Below are positions 8,896 through 19,937 of a DNA stretch of 64,000 nucleotides, one piece after another. The DNA lies in contig JAJRWB010000041.1 in NCBI GenBank assembly GCA_024276995.1, forward strand, positions 1-64,000. The letters are read 5' to 3'. The stretch comes from Candidatus Eiseniibacteriota bacterium. GTDB lineage: Bacteria; Orphanbacterota; Orphanbacteria; Orphanbacterales; Orphanbacteraceae. The position numbers were made by a program, and so were the translations under genes. Position 1 is the stretch's first letter. Each line of letters starts with the position of its first letter. Below the pieces are notes generated by a model. It was not told the origin of the DNA and did no database searches. It was given only the letters and a program-made list of their open reading frames with translations.

Positions 8896-8904
8896 GATCG
8901 GTTG

Positions 8905-8910
8905 ATTATA
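8905..8910 (-). promoter_or_regulatory. Candidate -10 element of the TPR-like gene
   Basis: On the minus strand this is TATAAT, only about ten bases from the ATG at 8895. No good -35 is seen 16-18 bases upstream. If real, transcription would start within a few bases of the start codon, consistent with the absence of a ribosome-binding site. Confidence 0.3.
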
Positions 8911-9128
8911 GCCGAATTCACCGGGGCGGAGGGGTTTTCGGAAAGAGGGGGGCTCTCACATTCCTGGAAGATGTGCGGCGTTCCGCCGCTTCCAACCGAC
9001 CGATCGGCCCCTTGCGCCGATCGTACCGGCCACCCATCGCACCCCACCTATCCGATCCCAACGCCGAAAAATCGTTTATACTGGCGGCAATGCCGGGGCG
9101 CTTCCCGGCGGAGGCGACGGATCGAATC

Positions 9129-10493
9129 ATGAATGAGAAGAAAGAACAGCGCGGACATCTCGACCTGGCGGTCGAAATCAGCCGGGCGGTGCGCGGCGCA
9201 GGCGGGCGCGCCCTCGCCGTGGGGGGGTATGTGCGCGACCGGCTCCTCGGCATCGAGCGCGAGGATGTCGACCTCGAGGTGTTCGGCGTCGAGTCGCGCC
9301 GTCTTGTCGAGATCCTTTCCTCCTTCGGGCGTGTCGACCTCGTGGGAAAGGCGTTCGGCGTGCTCAAGGTGGGCGGTCTCGACGTGTCGCTTCCGCGACG
9401 GGAGACGAAGACCGCCGCCGGCCACAAGGGGTTCCATATCGATTCCGATCCGTCGATGTCGTACGAAGAGGCGTCGCGCCGGAGGGACCTGACGATCAAC
9501 GCGATGGCGGAGGATCTTCTCACCGGCGAAATCCTCGATCCCCACGGCGGCCGGAAGGACCTCGACGAGAGGATGCTCCGCGCCGTCGACGAAGACCACT
9601 TCGGAGAGGATCCCCTGCGCGTCCTCCGGGTCTGTCGCTTCGCCGCGCGCTTCCTCTTCCACGTGGAGAAGAAGACCGCCGCACTCTGCCGCACTCTCGA
9701 TCTTTCCGAGCTTCCGGCCGAACGGCTCTTCGAAGAGTTCTCCGGCATGCTCCTCCAGCCGCACTTCCCGTCGGTGGCCTTTCAGACGATGCGCATCGTC
9801 GGGGCGGTCCGCTTTTTCCCGGAACTCGAGGCGCTCATCGGTTGTGAACAGGAATACGAATGGCACCCGGAAGGGGACGTCTGGGTCCACACGCTCCTCG
9901 TAACGGACGCCGCAGCGGAGCTGAAGACGGGCGATCGGTACGAGGACCAGGTGCTGATGTTCGCGGCGCTCTGTCACGACTTCGGGAAGCCGGCCACAAC
10001 GAAGTTTGAAGACGGCCGGATCCGGTCGATGAACCATGAAGCGCTCGGCGAAGCGCCGGCCCGTTCCTTTCTCGGGAGGCTGACGCGGGAGAAGCAGCTC
10101 ATCGATGACGTGGCGGCCCTCGTGGTGTACCACCTGAGACCGCACATGCTCCGGAAGGGAAGCGCCGGTCCCGCGGCGATCCGCCGGCTCGCCACGAAGA
10201 TCCCGATCGAGCGACTCGTCCGCCTCTCCCGCTCCGATCACTACGGTCGGACGACGCCCGACGCCCTGGCGCGGATCTACCGGGCGGGTGACTGGCTCCT
10301 CGAACGGGCGCGCGAGCTGGAGGTGGCCGAAAGCGGTCCGAAGCCGATCCTGATGGGGCGCCACCTGCTCGAAAGGGATGTCGCGCCGGGACCCGAAATG
10401 GGAAGGATTCTCGCCCTCGCTTTCGAGGCGCAGATCGAAGGGGAATTCGACGATCTCGAAGGAGCGATCCACTGGTTTGAGACGAGGAGATAA
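9129..10493 (+). CDS. cca: tRNA nucleotidyltransferase (CCA-adding enzyme family) with HD domain
   Basis: 454 residues. The family adds or repairs the 3'-CCA of tRNA. The nucleotidyltransferase core has [11 protein letters not shown] (31-41), the metal-binding DVD at 46-48, RRDLTINAM (118-126) and the neck region [15 protein letters not shown] (161-175). An HD phosphohydrolase domain follows, with CHDFGKP at 282-288 and NHE and H-rich positions after it. Head plus HD is the organisation of bacterial CCA-adding and related A- or CC-adding enzymes, so specificity cannot be decided by eye. ATG 9129 was chosen because homology begins a few residues later; its Shine-Dalgarno site is weak. clpB starts four bases after the stop. 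Confidence 0.9.
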
Positions 10494-18134: not shown

Positions 18135-18313
18135 CGATGATCCCCCGTACGGTTTTCGCCACGGGCGATTGTACCCCCCGTTTCGGAACACCTCAACGAA
18201 AACCGCCCGGCCGAAGACGGCGCATCCGGTTACGGTGTGGGCGAAGCGGGTTTGGTGTATCATGGCGGGTGGAGGGGACCGGAAGCGAACAGGGCGACGG
18301 AGGAAGGAGAGCG

Positions 18314-19196
18314 ATGAAAACGATACCCGATCTCGAGAAACTCGTGGTGGAACTGATCCGCCTCGCGTCGACCGAATTGCCGGCGGACATCACCGAGGCG
18401 CTGGAAAAGGGCCGCGCGGCGGAGGAGGACGATTCCGCCGCCGAGGCGACCCTCCTCACGATTCTCGACAACGTGAAGCTCGCGAAGCGAAAGGTCACGC
18501 CGATCTGCCAGGACACGGGGACACCCGTGTTCTATGTACGCCATCCGTGGGATTACCCCGACCGGCCGTTCCAGGAGGCGTTTCACGCGGCGGTGAAGGC
18601 GGCGACGAAGAAGAACTATCTCAGGCCGAACGCGGTGGACAGCATCACAGGCGAGAACAGCGGCGACAACACGGGGCTCCACTTTCCGGCGGTCTATTTC
18701 GAGCAATGGGATAAGGAGGACGAAGTCCGCATCGACCTGATGTTGAAAGGGGGCGGAAGCGAGAACCAGGGGATCCAGTATTCGCTCCCCCATGCAGGTC
18801 TCGCCGCCGGGCGCGACCTCGACGGTGTTCGGAAGGTGATACTCGACGCCGTGGTGAGAGCCCAGGGACTGGGGTGCGGTCCTGCCGTTCTCGGCGTGTG
18901 TATCGGCGGCGACCGGTCGAGCGGTTACGCTCTCGCCAAGGAGCAGGTGATGCGTCCGCTGGCGGACGAAAGCCCCGATCCGGTACTCGCGGCTTTGGAG
19001 AAGGAGATGGTGGAAAAGGCGAACACCCTCGGTGTCGGGCCGATGGGCTTCGGCGGGAGAACCACCGTTCTCGGCGCGAAGATCACGAAGGCTCACAGGG
19101 TACCCGCCAGTTTTTTCGTTTCCATAATCTACATGTGTTGGGCGGCGCGGCACAGGAGCCTGACCGTATGTGGCGGCGAGGTGAGCTATGACTTAA
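18314..19196 (+). CDS. Class I fumarate hydratase (fumarase), alpha-domain part; apparent frameshift at its end
   Basis: The alpha domain of the [4Fe-4S] class I fumarase (fumarate to malate), starting at ATG 18314 behind AAGGAGA. Recognisable parts are TPICQDTGTPVFYV (C65), ENSGDNTG, the GGGSEN segment, GLGCGP with C188, GVCIGGDRSSG with C196, and ASFFVSIIYMCWAARH near the end. Similarity holds to YDL at 19187-19195. The conserved continuation LSIPITEEEIR is then in another frame (from 19197). Read straight on, the same frame stays open to 19840, but as Arg/Gly-rich shadow sequence. One extra base around 19190-19197 explains this. The gene is either a fused 500-residue enzyme with a sequencing error, or inactivated. 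Confidence 0.8.
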
Positions 19197-19802
19197 CTGA
19201 GCATTCCGATTACGGAAGAAGAGATACGCGCCTTGAAGGTGGGCGATATGGTGTCCCTTTCGGGGACGATGGTTACGGCGCGCGACGCGGCCCACAAGTA
19301 CATCATCGATCGGTGGATCGACGAAGAGCCGAAGGGAGAGGACGCAAGGCTGAGACAGGTTCTCGGCGAGGTGCTCTCGAACGGCGTGATCTACCATTGC
19401 GGTCCGGTGGTCCGGAAGGACGACGGGGGGAAGTGGCACTTCATCGCGGCGGGACCGACGACCTCGATCCGCGAGGAGCCTTACCAGGGCCGCGTGATCG
19501 GCGCGCTCGGCGTGCGCGCCGTGATCGGCAAGGGAGGGATGGGAGAGAAGACACTGGCGGCGTGCAAGGAGCATGGCGCCGTCTACCTTCACGCCGTCGG
19601 GGGCGCCGCGTCGCTCATCGCGCGGTGCGTGGAGGAGGTAGAGGATGTGTACAAGACCGAATTCGGTCTTCCCGAAGCGTTCTGGCGGATCCGGGTGAAG
19701 AACTTCGGGTGCGTGGTGACCATGGACAGCCATGGCGACAGCCTGCACAAGGACATACTCGAGAAGAGCCGCGGCCTCTACAACGAGATGTTCGGGCTCT
19801 GA
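19197..19802 (+). CDS. Class I fumarate hydratase, beta-domain part (C-terminal, out of frame with alpha)
   Basis: Reading from 19197 gives LSIPITEEEIRALKVGDMVSLSG, the canonical beta-domain opening. It continues with TARDAAHKYI, HCGPVV, AGPTTSIRE, the KGGMGEKTL loop, HAVGGAAS and the C-terminal NFGCVVTMDSHGDSLH. The domain is complete, ending at 19802. In this frame a TAA lies immediately before (19194-19196), and the first usable start is TTG 19233, which would lose the first strand. Two-subunit fumarases exist, but there the alpha gene ends before beta begins; here alpha has no stop. I therefore treat both pieces as one frameshifted gene. Confidence 0.8.
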   Translation: MSIPITEEEIRALKVGDMVSLSGTMVTARDAAHKYIIDRWIDEEPKGEDARLRQVLGEVLSNGVIYHCGPVVRKDDGGKWHFIAAGPTTSIREEPYQGRVIGALGVRAVIGKGGMGEKTLAACKEHGAVYLHAVGGAASLIARCVEEVEDVYKTEFGLPEAFWRIRVKNFGCVVTMDSHGDSLHKDILEKSRGLYNEMFGL

Positions 19803-19937
19803 GCGGGAGAGGACCGGCGAGAACGGCGTCGTCGCGATGAAGGGGAGGAGTACCGCCATGGTCATCGACGGAGATGCGCCGTCGCGTCGCCCCCGGGGCA
19901 GTGTCCTTCGAGCTGCGGCGCGGGCGCAGGCGCGAAC

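Follow-up and report, generated by a model that had tools for sequence, protein, structure and literature searches.

The class I fumarase genes in the stretch of DNA analysed here (64,000 nucleotides from Candidatus Eiseniibacteriota bacterium, referred to below as the window) are best explained as an ordinary overlapping pair, encoding separate alpha and beta subunits, in which a single base has been substituted at position 19194. We put the probability of this reading at close to nine in ten, whether the substitution is an error in the assembly or a lesion in the cell. The first-pass annotation of this DNA had proposed instead that a one-base frameshift had split a fused protein of about 500 residues, a layout found in only two of the 100 other alpha/beta pairs that we surveyed, the remaining 98 being separate genes.

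The fumarase locus as assembled

In the assembly, the alpha frame starts with ATG at 18314 and remains open past 19195 (TTA at 19193-19195, followed by ACT, GAG and so on) until a stop ending at 19840, and the beta body runs in the +1 frame relative to alpha from CTG at 19197 (LSIPITEEEIR) to TGA at 19800-19802. The first-pass annotation had described the alpha domain as running in one frame to about 19195 and the beta domain as beginning with LSIPITEEEIR at 19197 in another, with no alpha-frame stop between the two, and this description holds. The alpha gene is given in Table 1 as ending at the codon homologous to the alpha stop of its relatives, which is TTA here and TGA in the two nearest relatives, L033 and L034. 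In addition, the beta frame contains an ATG at 19188-19190, overlooked in the first-pass annotation, exactly where beta starts in the nearest relatives, and this means that no indel is needed to account for the frame offset. This ATG is followed by ACT and then by TAA at 19194-19196, so that the beta gene as listed consists of a start codon, a stop at codon 3, a body (19197-19799) and the normal stop. Neither the alpha nor the beta body contains any further in-frame stop.

Table 1 Features of the fumarase locus, in window coordinates
Feature	Position	Strand	Basis or remark
RBS-like GGAGGAAGGAG 5' of alpha	18299..18309	+	Read from the sequence
Alpha subunit gene, class I fumarase-type hydro-lyase	18314..19195	+	PF05681, E 2e-75; TIGR00722 above cut-off
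RBS-like stretch GAGGTGAG 5' of the homologous beta ATG	19178..19185	+	Within the 16-mer at 19178-19193
8-nt alpha/beta overlap	19188..19195	+	ATGACTTA in the window, ATGACTGA in the two nearest relatives
Beta subunit gene from the homologous ATG	19188..19802	+	PF05683, E 5.5e-52; TIGR00723 above cut-off
Single differing base, T	19194..19194	+	Purine of the stop codon in 37 relatives with an 8-nt overlap
Out-of-frame continuation of the alpha frame across beta	19196..19840	+	ORF reading

The two domains, alpha (PF05681) and beta (PF05683), lie next to one another on the same strand, as in two-subunit class I fumarases. Whilst the broader domain models TIGR00722 (alpha) and TIGR00723 (beta) are passed, all of the narrower equivalog models score below their cut-offs: alpha reaches 233.7 bits against the fumarate hydratase model (cut-off 276) and 159.1 against that for tartrate dehydratase (cut-off 365), and beta reaches 162.2 (cut-off 269) and 158.8 (cut-off 264), respectively. 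We therefore use 'fumarase' tentatively, as the best family-level name for an activity that is predicted only. Three alpha cysteines (in CQDTG, GCGP and CWA) align with 7xky_A, and the GPTTS and GKGGM stretches of beta align with the same solved two-chain fumarate hydratase, 7xky; we take the cysteines to be cluster-binding and the beta stretches to have active-site roles. The window resembles this two-subunit enzyme (7xky chains A and B) in its near-full-length domains and its gene order but differs from it in that alpha has no stop at the normal place and beta has a TAA at codon 3. Homologous domains are also found in the fused class I fumarases (the FumA type and the 604-residue fumarate hydratases such as 5l2r), which are presumably those of E. 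coli and Leishmania. These, however, are read in one frame as one chain, whereas the window has two frames and its relatives two genes. A fused enzyme was rejected as a description of the window, where no single frame passes through both domains.

Comparison of the window with L033 (NG86) gave dN 0.23 and dS 1.53 for alpha and dN 0.21 and dS 1.83 for beta. These values suggest that both subunits were under purifying selection in the past, dS being near saturation and a very recent loss being of a kind that would not show. Relaxed selection was considered and rejected: in relative-rate tests, none of the six window comparisons was significant for alpha and one of six was for beta. The latter indicated faster change in the window (chi2 9.53, against L034 with L035 as outgroup), but L035 is unsuitable as an outgroup here, L034 and L035 being 80.5% identical and closer to each other than to the window. 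A stretch of beta at 19311-19355 includes about 12 extra residues (in RWIDEEPKGEDARLR) that are shared with L002 and absent from L003, L004 and L006.

The base at 19194 and the layout of related pairs

The three nearest relatives are L033 (72% identical to the window in alpha and 76% in beta), L034 (72% and 75%) and L035 (70% and 72%), with contig coordinates and sequence identifying L033 as the same place as L002 of genome G004. In all three, alpha ends with SYD and a stop, and the beta ATG overlaps this end, lying 9 nt 5' of the site homologous to 19197 and giving an 8-nt overlap. The window, L033 and L034 agree in every base of a 16-mer, GAGGTGAGCTATGACT (19178-19193), which is present in six of 122 loci, all copies of three places, namely the window (L001 and L032), G004 (L002, L033 and L118) and L034. 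At the base directly after the 16-mer, 19194, the window has T, whereas L033 and L034 both have G. This T turns the TGA of the alpha frame into TTA and the third codon of beta into TAA and, since 19194 lies inside the overlap, one substitution explains both the missing alpha stop and the premature beta stop. The window thus shares with pairs of the 8-nt class a beta ATG at 19188, inside the last codons of alpha and in the +1 frame, but has TTA at 19193-19195 where those pairs have a stop. Separate termination and initiation of the two genes are not seen: there is no alpha stop, and no ATG, GTG or TTG leads uninterrupted into beta.

Single changes were examined at the 60 positions from 19150 to 19209 (180 substitutions, 60 deletions and 240 insertions). 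Only two of the substitutions, both at 19194, yield an alpha stop together with an in-frame ATG, GTG or TTG start for beta. One open frame to 19802 results from 15 of the deletions, all at 19195 or later, and four of the insertions create an alpha stop that overlaps with an in-frame start just after 19197. Taken alone, these counts would also allow an indel; homology with the nearest relatives, which have separate genes and the ATG in common, favours a substitution.

To survey the layout of such pairs more widely, we used 110 loci: a set of 30 to which the window belongs and, out of 543 confirmed places, the best 80. Eight loci with no alpha and beta pair in the stretch and one duplicate were excluded, leaving 101 distinct pairs that are not wholly independent, some being close kin (L004 and L005, for example, or the Mucispirillum records). 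The alpha stop comes before or at the beta start in 98 of the 101; two pairs are fused in one frame, and the window alone continues past the junction out of frame. Overlaps of 8 nt account for 37 of the 98 separate pairs, overlaps of 1 or 4 nt for nine and other overlaps for eight, with no overlap in 44, although these classes are approximate because the beta start was taken mechanically as any ATG, GTG or TTG within 45 nt. The ten nearest loci (L002-L006 and L033-L037, L002 being the same as L033) were checked by eye and all have separate genes with frames offset by +1. Among the paired loci examined individually, the window alone lacks an ATG, GTG or TTG start for the beta frame. The first-pass annotation had held that this was not a normal two-gene arrangement and had suggested a search among homologues for a fused protein of 500 residues; the nearest relatives proved to have separate genes, and the ancestral layout would be just such an ordinary overlapping pair.

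The 8-nt junction itself, a start codon, two free bases and a stop sharing its T, occurs in 37 of the 100 other fumarase pairs, from several phyla judging by record titles, and may be an old feature that has been retained. A scan of viral contigs for the alpha/beta junction, with one base left free, found none. Six distant beta matches (G010, G021, G036, G052, G078 and G095) are each listed with one in-frame stop.

What would the substitution do? Ancestrally, alpha would be followed by beta as a separate gene with an 8-nt overlap, the +1 offset being part of this layout, and the normal pair would probably be translationally coupled. A study of overlapping unidirectional gene pairs (PMC10666635) describes short overlaps as coupling the translation of both genes by termination and reinitiation and as enriched for subunits of heteromeric complexes. 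In that study, the -8 overlap is described as the shortest derivable from long overlaps of its phase, as coupling less well than shorter ones and as less enriched than the commonest classes, -4 and -1. By that account, the fumarase pair fits the coupled pairs in its -8 nt class and its heteromeric subunits but, unlike them, the window overlap has lost its defining stop. With T in place of the purine, alpha would be opened and beta closed: ribosomes translating alpha would go on to read beta out of frame, and those initiating at the beta ATG would stop after two codons. Barring a restart at CTG 19197, neither subunit would be expected in its normal form.

Fumarases in the genome and the phylum

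The genome (3.76 Mb in 81 contigs, 96.17% complete) encodes one alpha and one beta subunit of class I fumarase. The first-pass annotation had suggested looking for a second fumarase, of the class II FumC type, but searches of the assembly with the fumC and Lyase_1 models found none: the only Lyase_1 match is adenylosuccinate lyase PurB, and the fumC model matches that place alone, weakly (E 7.7e-15). A second enzyme could lie in the approximately 4% of the genome outside the assembly. Citrate synthase is present, as is a malate dehydrogenase-like match that falls below its curated cut-off.

Our phylum set comprised seven genomes including that of the window, with no conspecific among them, the nearest beta being 75-76% identical. 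Four of the six other genomes encode class I alpha and beta, and five (G001, G002, G003, G005 and G006) encode a FumC-like protein (E-values no worse than 3e-136, but scores short of NCBI's cut-off). The type of fumarase is patchy even within one family, G001 and G005 having a FumC-like protein with no class I match and G002, G003 and G006 having both. Only class I is found in the window's genome and in its nearest relative, G004, whose junction is intact.

Weighing the explanations

The alpha frame crosses all 200 codons of beta without a stop, where about four would be expected. An equally open frame was seen in 0.5% of 5000 synonymous-codon shuffles (0.7% of 1000 in a second run), and in seven of the eight relatives checked the same phase contains between one and seven stops, with none in L003. 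At P 0.005 this openness at first seemed unusual enough for an extended alpha to be a real product, a candidate that we dropped after a control with 35 window genes. Of the 41 picked ORFs, seven were left out of the control set (one antisense to alpha, the other six short or poorly supported); alpha was added, and beta was taken from 19197 onwards. Across these genes, the phase beginning at codon position 3 contains 139 stops, compared with 352 expected from synonymous shuffles; the shortage reaches P<=0.05 in 24 of the 35, beta included, and 53 of 235 200-codon windows in the other 34 genes have no stop at all in that phase. Because the shortage is general in window genes, the open tail is weak evidence for a real product, and we found no evidence that the continuation is a selected one.

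This bears directly on the suggestion that the arrangement is real and functional, with beta translated from CTG 19197 after an ATG-ACT-TAA minicistron and alpha carrying a long out-of-frame tail. The CTG does directly follow the TAA and does open the conserved beta sequence, and an alpha frame this open is rare in the shuffles; set against these points are the general stop shortage and the solitary position of the window among the paired loci in having no standard beta start. We regard this reading as very improbable, and give equally little credence to the related idea that the T is fixed, that fumarase is still made by reinitiation at the non-standard CTG and that one substitution has rewired a coupled pair. 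The proposal that a fused alpha-beta gene has gained one base fares no better: it can draw on the 15 deletions that restore one frame and on the two fused pairs, but in the nearest relatives the two genes are separate, overlap and are offset by +1, neither the homologous ATG nor the 16-mer has been damaged, and fusion would also require the ancestral stop to have been lost. Only marginally less improbable is the loss of one base near 19198 from a pair in which the alpha stop lay a few codons further on and overlapped a new beta start just after 19197; although the four insertions restore such an overlap, this history requires, besides the loss, that the stop and the start had both moved out of the conserved overlap beforehand, the difference at 19194 included, and is the less parsimonious for it. 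Programmed +1 frameshifting was rejected, since the alpha frame has no stop at the junction, as the first-pass annotation had remarked, and the other pairs are overwhelmingly separate genes. Stop-codon reassignment was rejected as well, all three stops being used to end picked ORFs (22 TGA, 10 TAA and 9 TAG of 41).

The preferred reading, a substitution at 19194, leaves the origin of the T to be considered. The first-pass annotation had offered an assembly problem or a disrupted fumarase; both options survive, but the extra base that it placed around 19190-19197 is not supported, the difference from the two nearest relatives being a substitution at 19194. We infer that the T is probably either an error in the consensus or a minor strain variant that has entered the assembly, and that a real and recent lesion is distinctly less likely. 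If the T were real and fixed, which we think rather unlikely, the only class I fumarase found would have been broken recently, in a lineage that either has no working class I enzyme or has a second one that was missed. The T is, after all, in the assembly, and G001 and G005, which have a FumC-like protein but lack any class I match, suggest that class I can be absent in the phylum when such a protein is present. Single-base consensus substitutions are, moreover, uncommon in well-covered assemblies, and this somewhat favours a real variant. In the opposite direction, the genome has no strong FumC match while other enzymes of the cycle do match, both subunits appear to have been constrained until now, and their bodies are free of further stops. 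That a sole fumarase should be broken would be surprising, which argues for an error or a minor variant. No other obviously split gene was noticed in the window, a weak gauge of assembly quality given that family searches covered a minority of its ORFs. The ORF list was itself compiled greedily: an antisense ORF was picked over alpha, and a gap at 8896-10377 holds a long open frame, 8898-10493.

Taken together, these results indicate that, where two genes overlap by a few bases, a point change can look like a frameshift and break both of them at once. In the annotation of genomes assembled from metagenomes, a gene caller could turn such a locus into a 'fumarase' of about 500 residues ending in a nonsense tail, with the beta subunit missed or cut short, and metabolic reconstruction could misjudge the citric acid cycle from such a call. 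If the base is real, this would be a lineage in the course of losing the one fumarase that was found there.
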